A stretch of DNA of 28,574 nucleotides, from positions 1 through 28,574 of IMG/VR virus record IMGVR_UViG_3300030098_004395; one strand, 5' to 3'. The translations under genes were made by a program, and so were the position numbers. Positions 3,997-22,399 of this stretch are shown one piece after another. A model generated the notes under the pieces. The model had not been told where the DNA came from, searched no databases, and saw only the letters and a list, made by a program, of their open reading frames with translations. Positions within the stretch are counted from its first letter, which is position 1; each line of letters begins with the position of its first letter. The stretch comes from a virus.

Positions 3997-5890
3997 ACAA
4001 TTGGATAATACAGGTCAAGATATTTTTATGCAGCGTTACGCTTACCCAGGCGAAACGAAATATTCAGAGAGATGCAAGGCGATGGCGAAGCACATCGCTT
4101 CTGTTGAAGGTGATGAAGAAATTGAGAAGTATGAAAAGAAATTCTACGATGCTTTAAGTACAGGTGACCTCGTTCCTGGAGGTCGAATCATTTACGGCGC
4201 TGGCCGTAGCCAACAGAACCTTCTCAATTGCTATGCTATTGAGCCTGAAGACAGTGTTGAATCTATTGGTAAGACCATTCAAGATATGTACCGCATCTCT
4301 TGCGGAGGTGGTGGCATTGGCTTCAATTTTTCTAAGATTCGTCCGAAGGGCGATGACATTGGAAATGTGAAGAACTCTGCTCCTGGCTCTGTGTCAGTGA
4401 TGCAAATGATTAATGAGGTAGGAAATCATGTTAAAGCAGGTAAAAACAGAAGGACCGCACTTATGGCGGAACTTAATGTGGATCACCCTGATCTACTGGA
4501 CTTTTTGCATATTAAGCTGGATCTTTCTCAGCTAACGAACTTCAATATTTCGGTTGCGATCACCGATAAATTTATTGAAGCGTGTGAGAATGATGATACT
4601 TGGCAGTTTAAATTTGGTAACCGAGAATATCAAGTTTACTCGGCAAACAGAATCTCTAGCGATGGACACAGTGAAATCATTAACATTGTTGCACTGTCTG
4701 AAGAGGATGCTTTGGGCCGTGCGAAGCAGCATCATCTTCGTGGTTGGGATGATCAGTTTGAAGATGTTCAAGAAGTTCAATTCAAGGCTATTGACCTGTG
4801 GAATCGACTGTGGGAAAATGCGGTTAAGTCTGGTGAGCCGGGTATCTTCAACCTGTCACTGACGAACCGCTACACCAACATGTCCTACTTCCTTCGCATG
4901 AATGCCACTAACCCTTGTGGTGAGATTCCGTTGGACTCATATGCTAATTGTTGTTTGGGTCACGTTAACCTGTCCAATATGGTAAATGAGGACGGTAGCG
5001 ACTTGGACTGGAACCGACTTGCCAGAACTATTCGCACGGGTATTCGATTTCTCGACAACACTCTGACTGCAAATCACTACCCGATTGAGGAGTGCAAGAT
5101 TGCGGGTGATCGTTCTCGTCGGATTGGTCTAGGCACGATGGGCCTGCACCACATGCTCATCAAGCTGGGTATCAAGTATGGTACTGACAAGTGTATCGAG
5201 TTCATTGATAGACTCTATACTACTATCCGTAACGAGGCCTACCTTGCTTCTGTTTACATCGCCCGCGAGCGTGGCTCCTTCCCCGAGTTCAATGCTCGCA
5301 AATATTTGAATGAAGAGTTCGCTAAGACACTTCCTGCTCGGATTAGGATGCTTATCAAGGAGCATGGTATTCGTAACGCGGTGATGCTTACGGCTGCTCC
5401 TACAGGCACAATCTCAATGGTTCACGGCGCCTCAACTGGAATTGAGCCGATCTTTGCTCCAATGTACAACCGTCGTTATCGTGAGGGTAACACTTGGAAA
5501 TCTATTCTCGTTCTTGATCCTCTATTTAAGGAGGAGTTGATGAAGGGTAGTAACGGTAGGCATATTGTGGGATCTTATGATATCACTCCTGAACAACACA
5601 TGGCTGTTCAGGCCTGTATTCAGAAGTATGTTGATAACGCGATTAGCAAAACAATTAATCTGCCTAATGACGCAAGCCATGAGGTTGTCTCTAAGATGGC
5701 TCTAAAGTATGCTCCTTATCTTAAGGGCATGACGGTTTATCGCGCTGGATCAAAAGGCATGGAGCCACTGGAGGCTCTATCCCCCACTGAGGAAAACATC
5801 GCCAGGGCAATGGAGCTTATTGCTTCTGAGCAAGTTGAGACAGAGATGGCAGTTGAGGTCTGCAAGATTGGCGGGGAGTGTGGAGCCTAA
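3986..5890 (+). CDS. nrdJ: Adenosylcobalamin-dependent (class II) ribonucleotide reductase
   Basis: Reduces ribonucleotides to deoxyribonucleotides, supplying dNTPs for phage DNA. The reductase fold is shown by NLLNCYAIEP (C82, one redox cysteine), SCGGGGIG (105-112), NPCGEIPL (299-306, with the active-site Asn, Cys and Glu), NCCLGHVNLSNM (311-322) and a late APTGTISMV. The assignment to class II rests on the overall NrdJ-like pattern, the lack of an NrdB-like partner nearby and the cysteine-bearing tail (VCKIGGECGA) that would be re-reduced by thioredoxin. Residues about 190-255 form an extra segment between AITDKFIEAC and the KAIDLWNRLWENA block that I do not expect in a minimal enzyme. The gene appears to contain no AUA codons, unlike the glycan genes downstream. 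T4 itself uses class I enzymes, so this is a different solution. Confidence 0.88.
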   Translation: MAIKQLDNTGQDIFMQRYAYPGETKYSERCKAMAKHIASVEGDEEIEKYEKKFYDALSTGDLVPGGRIIYGAGRSQQNLLNCYAIEPEDSVESIGKTIQDMYRISCGGGGIGFNFSKIRPKGDDIGNVKNSAPGSVSVMQMINEVGNHVKAGKNRRTALMAELNVDHPDLLDFLHIKLDLSQLTNFNISVAITDKFIEACENDDTWQFKFGNREYQVYSANRISSDGHSEIINIVALSEEDALGRAKQHHLRGWDDQFEDVQEVQFKAIDLWNRLWENAVKSGEPGIFNLSLTNRYTNMSYFLRMNATNPCGEIPLDSYANCCLGHVNLSNMVNEDGSDLDWNRLARTIRTGIRFLDNTLTANHYPIEECKIAGDRSRRIGLGTMGLHHMLIKLGIKYGTDKCIEFIDRLYTTIRNEAYLASVYIARERGSFPEFNARKYLNEEFAKTLPARIRMLIKEHGIRNAVMLTAAPTGTISMVHGASTGIEPIFAPMYNRRYREGNTWKSILVLDPLFKEELMKGSNGRHIVGSYDITPEQHMAVQACIQKYVDNAISKTINLPNDASHEVVSKMALKYAPYLKGMTVYRAGSKGMEPLEALSPTEENIARAMELIASEQVETEMAVEVCKIGGECGA

Positions 5891-7794: not shown

Positions 7795-8173
7795 CTTTCC
7801 TTTTATAAAGGATAAAAAACACATCTACAATAAACTTATTGATAGAGAAATTGGAGATGTAAAATTGGGTTGGTCTACTTTTACATTTGAACTTCACTCC
7901 GATCTTTATGAGGGTGATCAAAAAGTGGATGGCTTGTGCATTTGGGATGAGCGTAAAATTAAATTAGAAATGAGTCTTGATGATATTGATGCTAGAGAGA
8001 CTATAATTCATGAGATTTACCACTGCATGCTAGAGGGTGTAGGATTTGATGAAAAAAACTTCGATCAGCAAAAAATGCTATTGACCAACGAGCAGCTTGT
8101 GGTAGCCTTATCAAAGCAAACAATGACTCTGCACCATCTTAACCCTAAATTATTCGCTACAATTTATGCTTGA
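7772..8173 (+). CDS. Small HExxH metallopeptidase-like phage protein
   Basis: A 133-residue protein with a zinc-metalloprotease-type motif HEIYH (80-84) in a predicted helix (ETIIHEIYHCMLEG). It is preceded by a strand-like stretch, GLCIWDERKIKLEM, that resembles the edge strand seen in SprT- and ImmA-type minimal peptidases. The third zinc ligand is not obvious. Proteins of this type are common in phages and often sit in replication clusters, but their substrates are mostly unknown. The start ATG has GGAG nine bases upstream and lies inside the end of the helicase gene. The stop overlaps the next gene by eight bases. Confidence 0.68.
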   Translation: MKNNKPSDFPFIKDKKHIYNKLIDREIGDVKLGWSTFTFELHSDLYEGDQKVDGLCIWDERKIKLEMSLDDIDARETIIHEIYHCMLEGVGFDEKNFDQQKMLLTNEQLVVALSKQTMTLHHLNPKLFATIYA

Positions 8174-8588
8174 TCCTAACACCATTACTCAAGATACTTA
8201 TCAAAGCATCATTAAGGAAGTGAGTCGAGTGGCTCGCGATCCGAACGAAGTTGCCAATCAACTTCGTGAAATTTCAGCGTTGTATGGCTATTATTATGGA
8301 ATCATGATTAAGTCTAAGAGATTCCTAGACGATGCTGAGGACATCTTGGAGAAACACAAGTCTACATCTCGCAATGAAAAGAGAAGTGAAGGCGTAAAAC
8401 TCACTGCCGTAGCGGCTGAGGATTACGTTAATTCTCTTGAGTTGACTGATCAATTAAACAATGAAGTCTTACGTCTTAAGGAGTGCTATGGATATGCTAA
8501 AGGTATCTGTAGCACCTTGGATATGAAGAAAGATATGCTTGTCCAGCTTTCCGCTAACAGTCGGCAGGAATCCAAGCTTTACCAATAA
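8166..8588 (+). CDS. Helical protein next to the gp32-like gene; function unknown (UvsY-like role possible)
   Basis: A 140-residue, almost wholly helical protein with charged heptad-like stretches (FLDDAEDILEKH and LNNEVLRLKECYGYAKGICSTL) and a C-terminal SANSRQESKLYQ. I recognise no catalytic motif. Its size, helical make-up and place directly before the single-strand binding protein are what one would expect of a recombination mediator such as T4 UvsY, but I see no diagnostic residues. That assignment is therefore only a hypothesis. It overlaps the metallopeptidase-like gene by eight bases. Confidence 0.6.
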   Translation: MLDPNTITQDTYQSIIKEVSRVARDPNEVANQLREISALYGYYYGIMIKSKRFLDDAEDILEKHKSTSRNEKRSEGVKLTAVAAEDYVNSLELTDQLNNEVLRLKECYGYAKGICSTLDMKKDMLVQLSANSRQESKLYQ

Positions 8589-8634
8589 CTTGTTAGCACT
8601 CGTTTGCAAATCAATAGCTTAAAGGAGAAATACA

Positions 8635-15231: not shown

Positions 15232-15912
15232 ATGATTAGGAACGTGGCCGTAATTCCTGCTCGCGCTGGCAGTAAACGCATAAAAGATAAAAATATAAAA
15301 TCTTTTTGTGGAAAGCCTTTGATAGACTACGCTATTAACGAAGCTTTGGGAAGTGATTTGTTTGATGAAGTGTTTGTCTCTACTGACTCCAGAGAGATAG
15401 CTGACATCGCTATAAAATGTGGCGCAAAGGTCCCTTACTATAGAGCCCCACGCTTGTCGGATGATTTCACTCCCTTATGGGAGGTTACTTTAGACTTTTT
15501 AAAGAGATTTGAAGGAAAAAAATATGATTACTGTTGCACTCTATTCTGTAATCCTTTTGTAAGAAAAGAGAGTATCAAAGAATCTTATCTCAAGCTGATA
15601 CAAACTGATAAGGACCATTGCTTCAGTGTCAGAAAATTAGATTACCATCCAGGCAGAATCTTCACTGTAAACAATGACACCTGTGAAATGCTCTCACCGG
15701 GCAATTTCAACACTAGAACGCAGGATCTCCCCGTTTTTTATGAGGAGGCTGCTCAATTTAGATGGAGCAAGACAAATTTCAGTTCTCCGTTCTCGTATGA
15801 CTATAATAGCATAGCTTTCCCTATACCAGAAAGTCTAGTTTGCGATATAGACACTGAACAAGACTGGTCCCTTGCAGAGTTAAAATTTAAAAGGTTGTTT
15901 CATCATGAATAA
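15232..15912 (+). CDS. pseF: CMP-nonulosonate cytidylyltransferase (PseF/NeuA-like)
   Basis: Activates a nonulosonic (sialic-acid-like) sugar with CTP to the CMP-sugar. The N-terminal nucleotide-binding motif is IPARAGSKRIKDKNIKSFCG (8-27), followed by VSTDSREIADIA. The later RTQDLPVFYEEAAQFRWSK resembles the PseF (pseudaminic acid) version more than NeuA. At 226 residues it is the usual single-domain length. The start ATG is set by a CTATAAT box, and the stop overlaps the next gene by eight bases. NeuA for a different nonulosonate cannot be excluded. Confidence 0.85.
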   Translation: MIRNVAVIPARAGSKRIKDKNIKSFCGKPLIDYAINEALGSDLFDEVFVSTDSREIADIAIKCGAKVPYYRAPRLSDDFTPLWEVTLDFLKRFEGKKYDYCCTLFCNPFVRKESIKESYLKLIQTDKDHCFSVRKLDYHPGRIFTVNNDTCEMLSPGNFNTRTQDLPVFYEEAAQFRWSKTNFSSPFSYDYNSIAFPIPESLVCDIDTEQDWSLAELKFKRLFHHE

Positions 15913-16933
15913 AACATATTTTATAGCAGACATTGCCGCTAATCACGATGGTAACTTACAAAGAGCTAAAATGCTCTGTCAGTTAGCCAAAAATAGTGGC
16001 GCTGATGCAGTGAAATTTCAACACTTTGATTGCAAAAAACTTGTTAGTGATTATGGGTTTAAGAATTTAGGTGATAAACTCAGCCATCAATCCTCTTGGG
16101 ATAAGTCCATATATGAAGTTTACAAGGACGCTGAAGTTCCTACTGCATGGATGAACGATCTTAAGCAGTATTGTGATGCCATAGGTGTAGACTTATTTTC
16201 TACACCGTATGATCTTGACATGGTGGATCACTTAGATCCTTACGTTGATTGCTATAAGATAGGCTCTGGTGATATAGCGTTTGAGCCCATGCTCCACAAA
16301 GTGGCAAAGACTGGTAAAAAAGTGATGATAGCCACTGGAGCCGCTACTTTACCGGAGGTGATCAAAGCGGTAGAGATTCTAAAGACTTACAAGATCCCCA
16401 TAGTCTTAATGCAATGTAATACTAACTACACTGGCAGTGATGAAAACTTTGATTACATACACTTAAATGTTCTTCACACCTATAGAAAGATGTTTCCTGA
16501 TGTTACTCTAGGTTTGAGCGATCATACTCCCGGTAGCGTAACGGTGCTAGGCGCAATTAGCCTAGGTGCTACTGTCGTAGAGAAACATTTTACGGATGAC
16601 AATAGAAGGATCGGCCCCGATCACTCTTTTTCTATGACCCCTGAAACCTGGAAGAAGATGGTTAAGGATACGAGAGTTCTAGAGAGATCTTTGGGTGGCT
16701 CTGATAAAAAAGTTGAGGACAATGAAAAAGAAACTGTAGTGCTTCAACGTAGGTCAATTCGATTTACCAGAGACGTAGCTAAGGGAGACATCATTAATAT
16801 TGAAGATATCCAATTTCAACGTCCATGCCCTGAAGATGCGTTTAACATAAACAACTATGAGTCTCTTATAGGTAAACCCGCAGCCAGAGATTTTATAAAA
16901 GGAGATTACGTAAAGAAAGATGATATACTCTAA
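15905..16933 (+). CDS. pseI: Nonulosonate synthase (PseI/NeuB-like) with SAF domain
   Basis: Condenses phosphoenolpyruvate with a six-carbon amino-sugar to a nine-carbon nonulosonate. The N-terminal TIM-barrel has FIADIAANHDGN (6-17), DAVKFQHF, STPYDLDMVDHL, YKIGSGDI, LGLSDHTPG and VVEKHFTDD, all family landmarks. The first acidic residue, usually Glu (AE-x-x-x-NH), is Asp here. The last ~65 residues form a SAF (antifreeze-like) domain beginning near RRSIRFTRDVAKGDII. At 342 residues it is full length. It lies directly after the cytidylyltransferase, the normal pathway partner. Confidence 0.9.
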   Translation: MNKTYFIADIAANHDGNLQRAKMLCQLAKNSGADAVKFQHFDCKKLVSDYGFKNLGDKLSHQSSWDKSIYEVYKDAEVPTAWMNDLKQYCDAIGVDLFSTPYDLDMVDHLDPYVDCYKIGSGDIAFEPMLHKVAKTGKKVMIATGAATLPEVIKAVEILKTYKIPIVLMQCNTNYTGSDENFDYIHLNVLHTYRKMFPDVTLGLSDHTPGSVTVLGAISLGATVVEKHFTDDNRRIGPDHSFSMTPETWKKMVKDTRVLERSLGGSDKKVEDNEKETVVLQRRSIRFTRDVAKGDIINIEDIQFQRPCPEDAFNINNYESLIGKPAARDFIKGDYVKKDDIL

Positions 16934-17450
16934 AGTTAAATCCTTTGGACTAAGAGCCATAGAGGAATCTGATCTACCGACAATTCATAAGTGGAGAAAC
17001 AGCGAGTGTTTAAGGCATTACTTTAGAGAGTATAGAGAATTATCCATGATTCAGATAAAAGACTGGTATCGTAAGATGATACCGGACAATAGATTTGAAA
17101 TGTTTGTTATTGAAAAGTTCGATGCTAATGAGATTATTGGAGTTGCTGGAATAACACATATTGATTGGGTTAATAGACACGCCGATTTACATTTTTACAT
17201 CGGGCAGGACGACAAATGGATTGATGACACATACTCTAAGAATGCCATGAAAATACTTTTAGATTATGGATTTAATACTTTGAATTTGAACAAGTTATGG
17301 ACGGAAGTGTATGAGGTTGATAAAAAGAAGCTACACTTTTATAATTCATTAGGGTTCACTTTAGATGGGTCTTTAAGAGAGCATTATTTCTACAAGGGTA
17401 GGTATTACACCTCCCATATGTTGTCCTTATTGGTAAAAGATTATGATTAA
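16920..17450 (+). CDS. pseH: GNAT N-acetyltransferase, PseH-like
   Basis: A 176-residue GNAT-fold acetyltransferase of the RimJ/PseH type. Its opening KSFGLRAIEESDLPTIHKWR (7-26) matches that group. The later NKLWTEVYEVDKKKLHFYNS followed by LGFTLDGSLREHYFYKGRY is the typical C-terminal block, with the N-x-x-S-x-x-x-Y-like acetyl-CoA helix end. In the pseudaminic pathway PseH acetylates the 4-amino group of the UDP-sugar, and the neighbours (synthase upstream, dehydratase downstream) support that role. It overlaps both neighbours by 14 and 8 bases. The substrate is inferred from context. Confidence 0.8.
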   Translation: MIYSKVKSFGLRAIEESDLPTIHKWRNSECLRHYFREYRELSMIQIKDWYRKMIPDNRFEMFVIEKFDANEIIGVAGITHIDWVNRHADLHFYIGQDDKWIDDTYSKNAMKILLDYGFNTLNLNKLWTEVYEVDKKKLHFYNSLGFTLDGSLREHYFYKGRYYTSHMLSLLVKDYD

Positions 17451-18303
17451 AATAGAAAAAGATAAAAAATATTTAGTTACTGGAGGAACTGGATTTCTCG
17501 GAGTCAAAGTCATTCAAAGAATATTGGATGAAGGGGGCAAAGTAGTAGTCCTCGCCAGAGACGAGGGTAAGCTTATTGAAGTAAATCAAAAATTTCCTAG
17601 TGTAGAGTTTTATACCGGGGATATCTGCGATCCTTTCAATGTTCATCAAGCTATGAGAGGTGTTGAAGGTGTGTTTCATTTAGCAGCTTTCAAGCATGTT
17701 GGGGTTGCTGAGTCCCTGGTAAGAGAATGCACTAGATCCAATGTCCTCGGCTCTCTCAACATTTTAGAAGAGAGTGCTAAAGTTGGCGTGAAGTTTGTTA
17801 TGGGCATTAGCACCGACAAAGCGTCTCAGGTTGCAGGCGTGTATGGAGCTACCAAGTACATCATGGAGAAACTGTTTACTCAGTTTGAGGAAAACTATCC
17901 TGATATTGAGTTTAGGGTGGTTAGGTATGGAAACATTCTGTACTCCACTGGCTCTGTCTTGTGTAAATGGAAGGAGTTGCTTTCTAAGGGTCAGCCAGTT
18001 ACAGTCACAGACCTTAACGCTACTAGATTCTTCTGGCCGGTTGAAGAGGCTGTAGAGCTTATCTGGGACTGCTTAATTAACGCTGAGAATAGCAGGCCAT
18101 ATGTACCAGAGATGAAGGCCATGAGTGTAGGCAACTTACTTAAGGCAATGTCTAAGAAGTATCTCCCAGAGGGTAAGGAGCTAATCATTAACGAGATTGG
18201 TCTTCAACCTGGAGAAAACATGCATGAGAAGATCTTGGCTGAGAGATCAGATTCTGATTCGGCAGAAAAGTATACCATAGAAGAAATCTTTGAAATGATC
18301 TAA
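17443..18303 (+). CDS. pseB: UDP-GlcNAc 4,6-dehydratase-like SDR enzyme (PseB/CapD type)
   Basis: A 286-residue extended short-chain dehydrogenase. NAD(P) binding is by VTGGTGFLG (12-20). HLAAFKHVGVAES matches the HAAALKxVPxxE stretch of PseB. The active site is ISTDKASQVAGVYGATK, where the Ser/Thr-Asp-Lys and Tyr-x-x-x-Lys correspond to the PseB catalytic set. VVRYGNILYSTGSV and ATRFFWPVEEAVELI complete the family pattern. The protein would begin the pathway from UDP-GlcNAc to a nonulosonate. It is a little shorter than bacterial PseB (about 330 residues), at the C-terminus. Confidence 0.85.
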   Translation: MIKIEKDKKYLVTGGTGFLGVKVIQRILDEGGKVVVLARDEGKLIEVNQKFPSVEFYTGDICDPFNVHQAMRGVEGVFHLAAFKHVGVAESLVRECTRSNVLGSLNILEESAKVGVKFVMGISTDKASQVAGVYGATKYIMEKLFTQFEENYPDIEFRVVRYGNILYSTGSVLCKWKELLSKGQPVTVTDLNATRFFWPVEEAVELIWDCLINAENSRPYVPEMKAMSVGNLLKAMSKKYLPEGKELIINEIGLQPGENMHEKILAERSDSDSAEKYTIEEIFEMI

Positions 18304-18308
18304 GAATC

Positions 18309-19085
18309 ATGCTCACAGTCACATCTAATTTAGTCGGACCTGATTACGGAAACTACGGTCTTGGTAATCAGATATTCCAGGTAGCTGCTCTGTTAAGCTT
18401 TGCTAAAGATAACAACTTTAAGGCTACATTTCCTGTTCTCAAAGATCCCAAACAGGGCGGCTACCTGGATAACTTTTTTAGAAATGTTAGCACTGATGAG
18501 CCAGAGTCAATTAGACACTGCTATACTGAACCATCATTTAGATACACCCCAATTCCTAAGTTTAATTTCTCTTTCCATGTATCGAACAGTTATTTGCAGA
18601 GTGAGAAATACTTTTTGGAAAATAGACAGCTTATACTGGATACGTTCAAACCTAAAGAGGATGACCTGAACTATCTTAAAAACAAGTATGCCACAGATCA
18701 TTACGATACATCCATGCACATTAGAAGAGGTGATTATCTGCACGATAGGTATAGTAATTATCACACTAACTTAATGACCACTGGCTATTATAGAAAGGCA
18801 TTACACAAGCTAGATGCATCCAAAGTTCTATTATTTTGTGACGAGCCCGAATGGGCTAAAATTGCATTTCCTGAGTACATGGTTGTAGAAGAGAAAGACT
18901 ACATGGAACTTTATCTAATGTCTTTGTGTAAGAACAACATTATTGCTAACTCTTCTTTTTCATGGTGGGGAGCTTGGCTAAACCAGAATGAAAACAAAAC
19001 GGTTATTGCTCCCGAAAATTGGTTCGGCCCTAGTAATAACTTGCCGAAAGATGACATAATACCAGAGGATTGGATTGTAGTATAA
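18309..19085 (+). CDS. GT11-type (alpha-1,2-fucosyltransferase-like) glycosyltransferase
   Basis: A 258-residue protein of the GT11 type. Diagnostic motifs are GNYGLGNQIFQVAALLSFA near the N-terminus (GGLGNQ-like), MHIRRGDYL (the GDP-binding HxRRGDY motif) and NSSFSWWGAWLN, followed by ENWFGP. The enzymes use GDP-L-fucose. The island also has GDP-mannose dehydratase, which is the first step to that donor, but no GDP-fucose synthase is seen. The gene lies five bases after pseB without a Shine-Dalgarno sequence. Its stop shares bases with the next ATG (TAATG). Confidence 0.88.
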   Translation: MLTVTSNLVGPDYGNYGLGNQIFQVAALLSFAKDNNFKATFPVLKDPKQGGYLDNFFRNVSTDEPESIRHCYTEPSFRYTPIPKFNFSFHVSNSYLQSEKYFLENRQLILDTFKPKEDDLNYLKNKYATDHYDTSMHIRRGDYLHDRYSNYHTNLMTTGYYRKALHKLDASKVLLFCDEPEWAKIAFPEYMVVEEKDYMELYLMSLCKNNIIANSSFSWWGAWLNQNENKTVIAPENWFGPSNNLPKDDIIPEDWIVV

Positions 19086-19498
19086 TGATTGACATAAAAT
19101 CTAAAGTAGAGGACGGCAAAGTGCTACATTGCATTCATCGAGGCTTCGATACTAAAAACGAGAGAAGTGAACTGGTCAGTGCTGAGAACTTTATCCAGTG
19201 TGCTCGTTTGTTGATGCACAAGGGTAGAACTTTTAAGCCTCACCGGCACATCTGGAAGGCCCCCAATTACGACAAGGTAATTGCTCAGGAAAGTTGGGTG
19301 GTGATTAAGGGTAGCGTTAAAGCTATCTTTTATGATCTTGATGGTGAATACTTAGAGTCTCATGTTCTCTACCCTGGGGACTGCTCATTCACTCTTGAGG
19401 GGGGTCACACCTACGAGATCCTAGAGAATAGTACGATGGTGTATGAATTTAAAACTGGGCCTTACGAGGGTCAAGAGCGTGATAAGGAGTTCCTGTAA
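19085..19498 (+). CDS. Cupin-fold protein of the glycan island
   Basis: A 137-residue single-domain cupin. HKGRTFKPHRHIWK holds the first metal-binding HxH-type motif, followed by ESWVVIKGSVKAIFYDLDG, YPGDCSFTLEGGHTYEIL and YEFKTGPY, the second half of the barrel. Similar small cupins (WbuC- or FdtA-like) occur in O-antigen clusters, where some act as sugar isomerases or epimerases; here the reaction is unknown. The start is ATG 19085, in a TAATG overlap with the GT11 stop. A longer frame from 19070 would lie inside the GT11 gene and is not needed. Confidence 0.72.
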   Translation: MIDIKSKVEDGKVLHCIHRGFDTKNERSELVSAENFIQCARLLMHKGRTFKPHRHIWKAPNYDKVIAQESWVVIKGSVKAIFYDLDGEYLESHVLYPGDCSFTLEGGHTYEILENSTMVYEFKTGPYEGQERDKEFL

Positions 19499-20028
19499 TG
19501 AAATTGCATTTAGGCTGCGGTATGAGAAATTTTGGTGAGGGTTGGGACCACATAGACTACGTGGGTTATCCTCATGTTGTATCAAATGATGTTACTAACT
19601 TACCCTACGATGACGATAGCTGTGATGTTGTTTACGCATCTCACTTGCTAGAGTACTTTGATAGGCATGAAGTATTAGGTGTCCTCAAAGAGTGGAAGAG
19701 AGTCCTTAAAAAGGATGGCATACTTAGGTTAGCGGTCCCTAACTTTGCTGTCCTAGCTCATCTGTACACTCATCAAAAGATAAATTTAAATCAAGTTATA
19801 GGTCCTCTGTATGGTAGATGGAATGTTCCACCTGTTTACCATAAGACAACTTACGACTATGATTCGCTTAAGGATGTTCTCCTGGGCAGTGGGTTTAAAG
19901 ATGTTAACCCTTATGATTGGAGAGAAACCGAACACTCTCATCATGATGATCACTCTCAAGCATACATACCTCACATGGATAAGGAGAACGGCGTGCTGAT
20001 TAGTTTAAATGTAGAGGCCATCAAATGA
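19498..20028 (+). CDS. SAM-dependent methyltransferase (class I)
   Basis: A 176-residue protein. Its opening KLHLGCGMRNFGEGWDHIDY (2-21) is the compact SAM-binding form common in glycan clusters. It is followed by LPYDDDSCDVVYASHLLEYF (motif II region) and ILRLAVPNF. Several His residues near the end (ETEHSHHDDHSQAY) may bind a metal or be part of the acceptor site. Probably a sugar or glycan methyltransferase, inferred from context. It starts directly at the cupin stop (TAATG) and overlaps the next gene as ATGA. Confidence 0.82.
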   Translation: MKLHLGCGMRNFGEGWDHIDYVGYPHVVSNDVTNLPYDDDSCDVVYASHLLEYFDRHEVLGVLKEWKRVLKKDGILRLAVPNFAVLAHLYTHQKINLNQVIGPLYGRWNVPPVYHKTTYDYDSLKDVLLGSGFKDVNPYDWRETEHSHHDDHSQAYIPHMDKENGVLISLNVEAIK

Positions 20029-20618
20029 GTTTTGCATGGGTTGAAGAGTTTGAAGTTAGGGTAGCAGAATTCTATAACGCTCCTCACGCCGTCGCAGTTG
20101 ATTGTTGCACTCATGCAATTGAATTATGTCTTCGGCATACCGAAGCTGATGACATCGTTATCCCAGCGAGAACTTACATATCTGTTCCTTTTACGGCAGA
20201 GAAGTTAAACTTGAACTGGTCGTTTGATAATTTTGGCTGGAATGATTACTACTTGATTGGTAATACTAACATTGTCGATGCGGCAGTTTACTGGGAAGAA
20301 GATGGCTACATCGCAAACACTTTAATGTGTCTGAGCTTTCAATATCAAAAACACCTCAGCTTAGGTCGAGGGGGCATGATTCTAACGGATAGTTATGAGG
20401 ACGCAGTAAAGTTGAAAAAAATGTCTTATGATGGTAGACTCCCACACGTACCTTGGCGTGACCAAGACATCGATACTGTTGGTTATCACTACTACATGAC
20501 ACCAGAGACGGCCAAGCTAGGCATTGAAAAACTAGAGAAAGCTAAAGCTATGAAGCCACGTTCCTGGACTATACAGGATTGGCCTGATTTAAGAAACATG
20601 AGCGTTTTTAAAGGTTAA
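20025..20618 (+). CDS. Miniature DegT/DnrJ/EryC1-family aminotransferase-like protein (PseC-like)
   Basis: A 197-residue protein, half the usual ~370-400 of this PLP-dependent sugar aminotransferase family. It keeps the N-terminal landmarks (WVEEFEVRVAEFYNAPHAVA and DCCTHAIEL, then DDIVIPARTYIS at 42-53). It keeps NIVDAAVYW in place of the vieDaAq motif and the PLP-lysine strand SFQYQKHLSLGRGGMILTD, with K109 the expected Schiff-base lysine. About 60 residues between the early and middle blocks and the whole C-terminal domain are missing. The frame is intact and tightly packed (ATGA overlap upstream), so it looks maintained rather than decayed. Whether it is an active PseC-like 4-aminotransferase is open. 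Confidence 0.7.
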   Translation: MSFAWVEEFEVRVAEFYNAPHAVAVDCCTHAIELCLRHTEADDIVIPARTYISVPFTAEKLNLNWSFDNFGWNDYYLIGNTNIVDAAVYWEEDGYIANTLMCLSFQYQKHLSLGRGGMILTDSYEDAVKLKKMSYDGRLPHVPWRDQDIDTVGYHYYMTPETAKLGIEKLEKAKAMKPRSWTIQDWPDLRNMSVFKG

Positions 20619-20622
20619 TGGG

Positions 20623-20629
20623 CTATAAT
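20623..20629 (+). promoter_or_regulatory. CTATAAT -10-like box before gmd
   Basis: A perfect CTATAAT ends six bases before ATG 20636. It overlaps an upstream in-frame ATG at 20618, which is therefore unlikely to be the start. No -35 element is seen. Confidence 0.68.
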
Positions 20630-20635
20630 CATATC

Positions 20636-21598
20636 ATGAATAAAGTAGCGTTGATTACAGGTATTGCGGGACAAGACGGAAGTTACTTGTCCGAATTGTT
20701 ATTGTCGAAAGGGTATGAGGTTCACGGCATAGTTCGTAGGAACTCTGTCGCTGAAAACCAAGACAGCAGAATTAGAGGTCTTAATGTCACCACACACTAC
20801 GGCGACTTGTTAGACTCTCTATCGATCAATAGAATCGTAAACGAAGTCCAACCCGACGAAGTGTATAACTTAGCTGCACAAAGCCATGTTAGGGTGAGCT
20901 TTGATGTTCCCTCGTTTACCATTCAGACTAATGCATTAGGTGTTCTAAACCTTCTTGAAGCTTGTAGAACTCTTAAGAAAAAAGTGAAGGTGTATCAGGC
21001 TAGCTCGTCTGAAATGTTTGGCAACTCAATCGATAGCGACGGGTTTCAGCGAAAGACGACACCCATGAACCCTACATCTCCTTACGGCTGCGCTAAGGTT
21101 ATGGCCTACAATCTTACTCGGCACTATCGCCAAGCATACGACATGCACATCTGTAACGGCATCCTCTTCAATCACGAATCCCCCAGAAGAGGTTCCAACT
21201 TTGTAACCAATAAGATTGTTAAGGGCGCTGTAGAAATTAAGAAAGGCAAGAGAGATAAACTTGCTTTAGGAAACTTGGACGCATCTAGAGACTGGGGACA
21301 CTCTAGAGATTATGTAAGAGCTATGTATATGATTCTCAATCATGATCAAGCTAACGATTGGACTGTGGCTACTGGTGAAAGTAGGACAATCAGAGACATG
21401 TGTGAAGTTACTTTTAACCTTTTAGGTTTGAACTATGAGGATCACGTCACCATAGACAAAAAGTATTTGAGGCCTCATGAGTTAAACTTCCTTAAGGGAG
21501 ATTCAACCGAGATTAGAGAGGTTTTAGGTTGGGAGCCTGCTTATACCTTTGAATCTATGGTTGGTGAGATGGTTAAACACTGGATGGAGATTGTGTAA
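20636..21598 (+). CDS. gmd: GDP-mannose 4,6-dehydratase
   Basis: Converts GDP-D-mannose to GDP-4-keto-6-deoxymannose, the precursor of GDP-fucose, GDP-rhamnose and related sugars. NADP binding is by ALITGIAGQDGSYLSELLL (5-23), then GIVRRNS, then NLAAQSHVRVSFDVP. The catalytic set is SSSEMFG with YGCAKVMAYNLTRHYR. NHESPRRGSNFVTNKI and DWGHSRDYVRAM are further family blocks. At 320 residues it is slightly short. I start it at ATG 20636, just after a CTATAAT box. The six-residue N-terminal extension from 20618 would be encoded across that box. It fits the GT10 and GT11 transferases in the island. Confidence 0.92.
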   Translation: MNKVALITGIAGQDGSYLSELLLSKGYEVHGIVRRNSVAENQDSRIRGLNVTTHYGDLLDSLSINRIVNEVQPDEVYNLAAQSHVRVSFDVPSFTIQTNALGVLNLLEACRTLKKKVKVYQASSSEMFGNSIDSDGFQRKTTPMNPTSPYGCAKVMAYNLTRHYRQAYDMHICNGILFNHESPRRGSNFVTNKIVKGAVEIKKGKRDKLALGNLDASRDWGHSRDYVRAMYMILNHDQANDWTVATGESRTIRDMCEVTFNLLGLNYEDHVTIDKKYLRPHELNFLKGDSTEIREVLGWEPAYTFESMVGEMVKHWMEIV

Positions 21599-21956: not shown

Positions 21957-22121
21957 CTACACTACTCTGCTTCTAAGCTTTCTGATCTCATCTTCCAGCA
22001 TAGTTGAGGCATCTGCTAATGTCCTCTCATAAGTTTCGGTATCTTCGTAGGAGTCGCTGGGCTTTTCATCACTTTTAATAGTGGTAATCTTATCGAGAAG
22101 CTCTCTGTGAATGTTGGTCAT
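21957..22121 (-). CDS. Small acidic helical protein (54 aa), minus strand
   Basis: ATG at 22121-22119, sharing its A with the stop of the upstream minus-strand gene (TAATG), to TAG at 21959-21957. The 54 residues (MTNIHRELLDKI through DEIRKLRSRVV) are mostly charged and helical, without recognisable motifs. Translational overlap with the 92-residue gene and clean packing against mazG support it as real. Confidence 0.55.
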   Translation of the reverse strand: MTNIHRELLDKITTIKSDEKPSDSYEDTETYERTLADASTMLEDEIRKLRSRVV

Positions 22122-22399
22122 TAGCTTGCCTTACTTAATAAAGTTGCTGCTGTAGTGATTAGCGAGAATATCATACCCCAGAATAACCAGCCCTGTTTCC
22201 ATGATCTTCTCTCCAAAATATCTAAGGATTTATTCATTCTCTTATGGTCGTCAACACAATATGCTAGCTTTTGCAGTATGTCTTCCTGCTGTTTAGACAA
22301 CAAAATTTGAAGTTCAATTGTTTTGGCGTGAACCTCAAGTTGTTGATTAAGATCCGCTCTAGTTACCGTGTCGTTGGGGTTTTCAGGTACGATAGCCAT
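22121..22399 (-). CDS. Coiled-coil protein with C-terminal membrane anchor, minus strand
   Basis: A 92-residue protein. The first ~65 residues are charged and heptad-like (LNQQLEVHAKTIELQILLSK and DHKRMNKSLDILERR). The protein ends in a single hydrophobic helix (QGWLFWGMIFSLITTAATLL) with a short tail SKAS, giving a tail-anchored topology. It is divergent from the gene at 22455 and lies in a TAATG overlap with the small gene downstream. Being one of few minus-strand genes, it may be expressed at a different time. The function is unknown. A membrane-associated role such as exclusion or lysis control is possible but unsupported. Confidence 0.65.
   Translation of the reverse strand: MAIVPENPNDTVTRADLNQQLEVHAKTIELQILLSKQQEDILQKLAYCVDDHKRMNKSLDILERRSWKQGWLFWGMIFSLITTAATLLSKAS

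Follow-up and report, generated by a model that had tools for sequence, protein, structure and literature searches.

By sequence comparison, a well-conserved homolog of sugar aminotransferases, half the usual size, is present in many phages and in a few marine bacteria, where it is usually encoded beside a GDP-mannose 4,6-dehydratase (GMD). The copy examined here lies in a 28,574-nucleotide stretch of IMG/VR virus record IMGVR_UViG_3300030098_004395, called the window below. The features of the window that bear on it are the following.

15232-18303: nonulosonate-type genes, encoding a CTP-transferase, a NeuB-family synthase, a PseH-like GNAT and a PseB-like dehydratase
19070-19498, plus strand: WbuC-like cupin, gene 1 of a recurrent cassette (TIGR04366, 43.2 bits against a cutoff of 42; relatives in 63 of 100 loci)
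19498-20028, plus strand: small class I methyltransferase (Pfam Methyltransf_11; relatives in 39 of 100 loci)
20025-20618, plus strand: short DegT-type PLP aminotransferase homolog, 197 amino acids (Pfam, PDB alignment, AlphaFold, dN/dS)
20618-21598, plus strand: GMD (TIGR01472, 397.9 bits against a cutoff of 415; best E value to GMDs in the PDB, 1.9e-98)

A sequence-only reading had described the gene as an open frame coupled to its neighbors, and the sequence bears this out: the frame is open for 197 amino acids and both of its ends overlap adjacent genes. The TGA of the methyltransferase and the ATG of the short DegT overlap as ATGA (20025-20028), and the TAA of the short DegT (20616-20618) shares 1 base with the ATG at 20618; from its sequence, the more GMD-like start at 20636 is the more likely one for the GMD. 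Pfam model DegT_DnrJ_EryC1 (PF01041) matches the protein with 65.9 bits (cutoff 19.8) in two stretches. These are the only PF01041 matches at an E value of ≤1 in the 36-kb record, so that no downstream frame completes the protein and a split gene was rejected for this record. Matches to PF01041 were likewise confined to the short open reading frames in 39 of 50 whole records. Farther along the window, at 21957-22399, two small adjacent open reading frames with a 1-base overlap run on the minus strand of an otherwise plus-strand stretch.

The short form is widespread. A search of viral contigs, of which we kept the best 80 of 134 confirmed relatives, those closest to the window, contributed to a set of 100 loci (84 viral and 16 bacterial) in which neighbors were counted in flanks of about 6 kb. 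The search for homologs of the same length that the earlier reading had proposed found them in abundance: all of the first 84 relatives read are 194 to 240 amino acids long, one per locus, and the short length is therefore not a chance event. One of the 84 (L005) has the same sequence as the window, being either the window itself or an exact copy of it, and many of the viral contigs are near copies of each other, for example L071, L072 and L076 to L078. A collection of named phages held seven records with a short DegT, four of them near-identical Flavobacterium phages. The five of these seven that are annotated call the protein "3-amino-5-hydroxybenzoic acid synthase" or "dTDP-4-amino-4,6-dideoxygalactose transaminase." Among the literature matches listed we found no paper on a half-length DegT; the excerpt of PMC9723584 that we matched names a phage DegT in a list. 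Together, the viral, bacterial and GMD-seeded loci gave 132 distinct family proteins of 194 to 265 amino acids, the window's included, in a set limited by design to matches above 100 bits with a start and a stop and so free of fragments and full-length forms.

Selection on the gene is strongly purifying. Across 65 related pairs (identity of 78 to 98.5%, dS of 0.05 to 2, with sequences recurring between pairs), the median dN/dS was 0.091 and the highest 0.207. With the PLP-site residues present in 132 of 132 proteins and all 84 relatives holding the same length, a pseudogene was rejected, as the sequence-only reading had argued; so was the idea that homologs elsewhere are full-length only, given the short relatives in viral, bacterial and GMD-seeded loci. 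In a tree that sampled 22 rows of clade A (the window plus a random draw) and 22 hand-picked full-length DegTs, the 55 short forms make up one side of a branch with 100/100 support, which fits a single reduction event within this sample of sequences. A second group of 15 proteins, 229 to 265 amino acids long, keeps an N-terminal extension and lacks the same internal and C-terminal parts; one of them (L136) stands apart from the other 14. L003 and L004 make up a third clade. Searching with members of these two clades brought up no additional phage record. The third-clade L004 is from Flavobacterium phage immuto, in which a full-length and a short DegT (4268-5467 and 7977-8621) sit in one glycan cluster.

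The bacterial short DegTs (L086 to L101) come from Prochlorococcus single-cell records and others, two of them named MAG Altibacter and Planctomycetaceae. In the tree they are nested at several places among the phage copies, and this scatter suggests transfer of the gene. Some of these hits may be phage contigs in bacterial bins, for example L086 (12 kb), in which the MazG- and GT11-like gene order is as in the window. Not all of them are likely to be phage contamination, since three of the contigs are 229 to 380 kb long.

With the full-length phage DegT of locus L148 (365 amino acids) as size reference, the matched residues T29/T58, D85/D153 and K109/K182 place the 168 absent residues: about 29 before T29, 39 between T29 and D85, 5 between D85 and K109 and 95 after K109. 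The sequence-only reading had proposed that about 60 residues were missing between the early blocks and the lysine; the missing segment is there, but the matched residues put it at about 44 (39 plus 5) by comparison with L148. The same reading had the protein as half-length and without its C-terminal domain, and the loss of about 95 residues after K109 takes away most or all of that domain. The N-terminal arm of about 29 residues is a further loss beyond those it had listed. On the PF01041 profile, the short DegT covers only positions of roughly 9 to 109 and 163 to 244 of 360, and a profile comparison of the short family with nine full-length phage DegTs gave a probability of 99.4 and an E value of 9.6e-22. 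A small C-terminal domain with a His-Tyr/Phe cis pair is described for Spr1654 in an excerpt of PMC5936713. We looked for this domain, and no PF01041 match extends past position 244 in the short open reading frames. The short DegT is thus no ordinary DegT enzyme but a reduced variant of one.

What remains includes the cofactor site. K109 (codon 20349-20351) aligns with the PLP lysine of the Caulobacter GDP-perosamine synthase, and D85 (codon 20277-20279), the pyridine-binding Asp, is Asp in 132 of 132 family proteins; retention of both had been read from the window alone. The column of K109 holds K in PDB entries 3bn1 and 3dr7 and A in 3dr4, whose title names it a K186A mutant. K109, D85, S104, T50 and Y51 are invariant across the 132 short-family proteins, and position 29 is T in 121 and S in 11. 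The nine full-length phage DegTs have invariant residues too, and those with an equivalent position in the short form (T, D, A, S, K, G, G and G) are all present in the window protein. The PLP contacts given for Spr1654 in the excerpt (Lys199, Asp170, Ser194, Thr59 and Tyr84; PMC5936713) are matched by the short-family Lys, Asp, Ser, Thr and aromatic ring partner, where Y51 and T29 were paired by alignment ranges and S104 by its distance from the Lys. Further residues are found family-wide, namely Y76, R138, G153, P160 and E161 (each 132/132), and the tail is marked by W181 (114/132), D185 (112/132) and an aromatic position 186 (W in 91, Y in 41).

The substrate side is changed. In the Spr1654 model, as far as the excerpt describes it, His344, Tyr345 and Asn342 flank the hexose and the diphosphate (PMC5936713), and their counterparts fall in the domain that the short DegT lacks. 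Three other Spr1654 residues from the same excerpt can be placed by spacing. His173, the partner of PLP O3', corresponds by spacing from the Asp to V88 (V in 117, T in 10 and others in 5 of 132); no short protein has a His three residues after the Asp (0/132), a residue that is not universal among DegTs either. The hexose-side His196 corresponds to Q106 (Q in 130, T in 2), and the water-linked Glu205 to R115 (R in 113, K in 19). The DegT loop G-x-N-x-R-M is replaced by GYHYYM.

An AlphaFold single-chain model of the window protein, built with 60 relatives, predicts a compact and confident fold (pLDDT 95.3, pTM 0.91). Foldseek ranked GDP-perosamine synthase first and second in the PDB (3dr4/3dr7). 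The 50 best VIA-align entries, which are DegT-type with few exceptions if any, have Z scores of 17.6 to 19.8 over 183 to 195 of the 197 residues; GDP-perosamine synthase is tied with many other DegTs, and none is singled out. The same alignment, read at its end points only, puts the last residue of the model near chain residue 356 of Spr1654 (6ewr), and from this the tail may lie where the missing His-Tyr strand would be, which we offer as a lead only. The nearest model in BFVD, A0A5Q2W5Y7, is a 316-amino-acid viral protein (E value of 1.5e-13, TM score of 0.85 by query length) that may be a longer relative or a fusion.

GMD is the commonest neighbor found. It occurs at ≥350 bits in 70 of the 100 loci (57 of 84 viral and 13 of 16 bacterial), in 51 of 73 when short DegTs more than 90% alike are counted once, and in 76 of 100 at a laxer E value of ≤1e-10. 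A count by identity, covering 80 of the 84 viral loci (4 were lost at gene picking), found a GMD with ≥56% identity to that of the window in 55, at position +1 in 44, +2 in 9 and +3 in 2. Of 50 whole records, 35 hold a GMD at an E value of ≤1e-30 and 15, among them the complete S-SCSM2R genome, do not. Seeding the search with GMD instead gave a short DegT within 3 kb in 56 of the best 80 GMD loci, those closest to the window, on contigs partly common to the DegT-seeded set. Among named phage records, 85 have GMD relatives (E value of ≤1e-40) and 7 a short DegT. Four distinct short-DegT phage records were searched whole, and only LR756511 has a GMD at that level, about 38 kb from the short DegT and adjoining a full-length DegT. 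The tight link is thus a feature of the viral contigs and bacterial loci nearer the window.

All four cassette genes (cupin, methyltransferase, short DegT and GMD) were found at 33 of the 100 loci, 12 of which are among the 16 bacterial ones. In 30 of the 33 they are in the same order on one strand, and in 17 the largest gap is ≤104 bases. In L098, where the contig is 380 kb long and belongs to an alphaproteobacterial record, the four genes are joined by overlaps or by a shared base, and the cassette looks to be inside a polysaccharide locus. A hexapeptide acyltransferase most like PDB entries 3vbi to 3vbp is found in 25 loci, 23 of them with a strong GMD. The PDB labels these entries galactoside O-acetyltransferase; we take them to be AntD, which N-acylates a 4-amino sugar. 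Genes resembling GDP-fucose synthase occur less often (in 9 of 50 records at an E value of ≤1e-20, none above the model cutoff). We rejected the motif RRxS..E[NH]Q..R as an exclusive mark of GMDs paired with a short DegT; it is also present in GMDs beside a full-length DegT (L145 and L148) and beside SDR genes, and copies with the canonical RRSS..NT..R occur in some of the same loci.

The 24 of the best 80 GMD loci that have no short DegT above 100 bits show what else can stand at this position. In L148 and L145, GMD is preceded by a full-length DegT and a cupin, with methyltransferases recognized by eye, and the full-length DegT of L148 is closest to GDP-perosamine synthase (E value of 1.1e-67). 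L150, L173 and L177 have a ColD-like gene and a fucose-synthase homolog; the three ColD-like genes group in the tree, and that of L150, directly before GMD, matches ColD with E values of 3.5e-66 to 6.5e-65. On these three viral contigs GMD, ColD-like and fucose-synthase-like genes lie side by side, and by homology a phage-encoded colitose-type pathway is possible. All nine fucose-synthase homologs scanned match the GDPFucSynFcl model below its cutoff (186 to 229 of 500 bits). At the remaining loci there is an SDR gene, a cupin, alone or accompanied by a methyltransferase (both in L112 and L144), or a contig edge. In L174 (1548-2120), L156, L178 and L179, a small SDR of 190 amino acids sits between cupin and GMD, the usual place of the short DegT; from its sequence it is maybe a ketoreductase. 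With perosamine-synthase-like DegT, ColD and fucose-synthase homologs found there, the position is often held by expected users of GDP-4-keto-6-deoxymannose.

Loci without GMD have a different company. In 13 of the 100 loci (7 of 73 after removal of near copies), none of which has a GMD, the short DegT is at most a few genes away from a StrB1-like amidinotransferase. The latter matches inosamine-phosphate amidinotransferase with an E value of 7.3e-63; the copy from L072, used as a query, had no match in the window's record. These loci (L072, L074 to L078, L001 and others) also hold a relative of an oxygenase annotated in S-SCSM2R; the 168-amino-acid protein of L078 has no solved relatives at an E value of ≤0.1 and matches Asp_Arg_Hydrox below the Pfam cutoff. 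Amidinotransferases require an amine acceptor, and therefore an aminotransferase, acting on another substrate, fits these loci too; a guanidino-sugar pathway is possible in such phages. Of the 15 records that lack GMD, 11 hold another PF16363-type SDR at some position, and at 11 of the 100 loci neither a GMD nor an amidinotransferase is seen.

The homology, the PLP-site residues, the predicted fold, the long maintenance, the GMD neighborhood and the enzyme swap are computed results, and from them we infer the activity, the dimer, the amino donor, the product and the holding of the sugar without a small domain. The short DegT is very probably an aminotransferase of some kind. Our favored reading, which we consider probable, is that of a half-size sugar aminotransferase that most often makes GDP-perosamine and does so without the small domain. 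The fold-type-I cofactor core would be kept, with PLP on K109, D85 at the ring nitrogen, S104 and T29 at the PLP phosphate and Y51 against the ring, most likely in a homodimer whose active site lies between the two chains. The GMD encoded next door would supply GDP-4-keto-6-deoxy-D-mannose, which is probably the substrate in the GMD loci, and amination at C4 would give GDP-4-amino-4,6-dideoxy-D-mannose (GDP-perosamine), which after N- or O-modification would go into a glycan. In the minority of loci without GMD, another keto-sugar would be aminated and the amine passed on, for example to the amidinotransferase.

A bolder form of this proposal, to which we give even chances, is that a 195-residue homodimer of the PLP core is fully active, that it arose once and spread among phages and marine bacteria, and that its own loop and tail or a partner dehydratase replace the small domain. 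Candidate replacements are the conserved loop from G137-R138 to Q147 and the tail from W181 to F195; alternatively, the dehydratase may hold the substrate in a channelling complex. To our knowledge, the 195-residue form would be the smallest fold-type-I aminotransferase. The DegT/DnrJ/EryC1/StrS enzymes ArnB, PseC, Spr1654 and WecE have PF01041, PLP-site residues and fold in common with it. Its closest solved relative, by sequence (3bn1/3dr7) and by Foldseek (3dr4/3dr7), is the Caulobacter GDP-perosamine synthase (3bn1/3dr4/3dr7), with an aligned PLP lysine and the same likely substrate supplier, GMD; that enzyme is about twice as long, however, and the short form has V88, Q106 and H155 in place of the usual contacts. 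ColD, the GDP-4-keto-6-deoxymannose 3-dehydratase, is of the same fold family and has the same expected substrate, but according to an excerpt of PMC8987622 it has a His in place of the PLP lysine, whereas all 132 short-family proteins have Lys there.

Other readings accept the same protein and assign it differently. The enzyme could have another regiochemistry or substrate, giving a 3-amino product of the GDP-mycosamine type with the cupin as 3,4-ketoisomerase, or acting on different NDP-ketosugars by locus. FdtA-type ketoisomerases are cupins, and a cupin is frequent near the short DegT (63 of 100 loci); the amidinotransferase in some loci and the other extended-SDR gene in some GMD-less records would suit a different substrate. 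However, the window's cupin has no Pfam match at an E value of ≤0.1 and no solved relative better than 0.26, and it barely passes the WbuC cutoff; cupins also occur at GMD loci in which no DegT was seen, and in L148 the full-length DegT found instead most resembles a perosamine synthase. We regard this alternative as unlikely. Somewhat less likely still is a PLP binder that is no transaminase alone and works within a hetero-complex, the other half being, for example, GMD or a host DegT that supplies the substrate domain. The absent small domain, the overlapping genes and GMD as the usual next gene would agree with it, but 39 of 50 records hold no other DegT and 15 of 50 no such GMD, many of the records being fragments, so that there is no universal single phage partner. 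A full-length phage DegT as the required partner was rejected as a rule; one is found in 11 of 50 records, in one of which (G036) it contains a stop.

The sequence-only reading had also raised a minimal PseC, and as a role for the family this is not supported. For this one phage the idea that the protein is the PseC or LegC of the nonulosonate pathway at 15232-18303 draws on the CTP-transferase, NeuB, PseH-like GNAT and PseB-like genes there and on the lack of any other DegT in the 36-kb record. Against it, the protein scores 30.7 bits with the PseC model (TIGR03588, cutoff 423.5) and 49.8 bits with the LegC model (TIGR04181, cutoff 420), cutoffs that a half-length protein could hardly reach. 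Nor do these models discriminate: in group A1 of the short DegTs, 60 of 60 proteins match LegC and 57 of 60 match PseC weakly, and the full-length DegT closest to perosamine synthase matches as well. Nonulosonate neighbors are nearly absent from the family. Among the 100 loci, NeuB-like and GNAT neighbors are confined to L005, the window's own sequence or its copy, and a PseB-like neighbor is found in 7 including L005, at 42 to 110 bits in the other six. We therefore hold this assignment improbable. Least credible of all is a noncatalytic relic or scaffold: the substrate-holding parts and the usual O3' partner are lost, but Lys, Asp and Ser are invariant in 132 of 132 proteins and dN/dS is 0.09.

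The half-size aminotransferase that makes GDP-perosamine thus stays our preferred reading. The conservation of the short DegT and its usual place beside the gene for its likely starting sugar suggest that half of this PLP enzyme may be enough to work. If it is active, the small domain and the N-terminal arm would be dispensable in a much-studied PLP fold, and the short form would be a natural minimal scaffold for sugar amination. The analysis also offers a likely function for a family now annotated under the names of other aminotransferases and synthases, and the short DegT may help to recognize phages that produce glycans with amino sugars.
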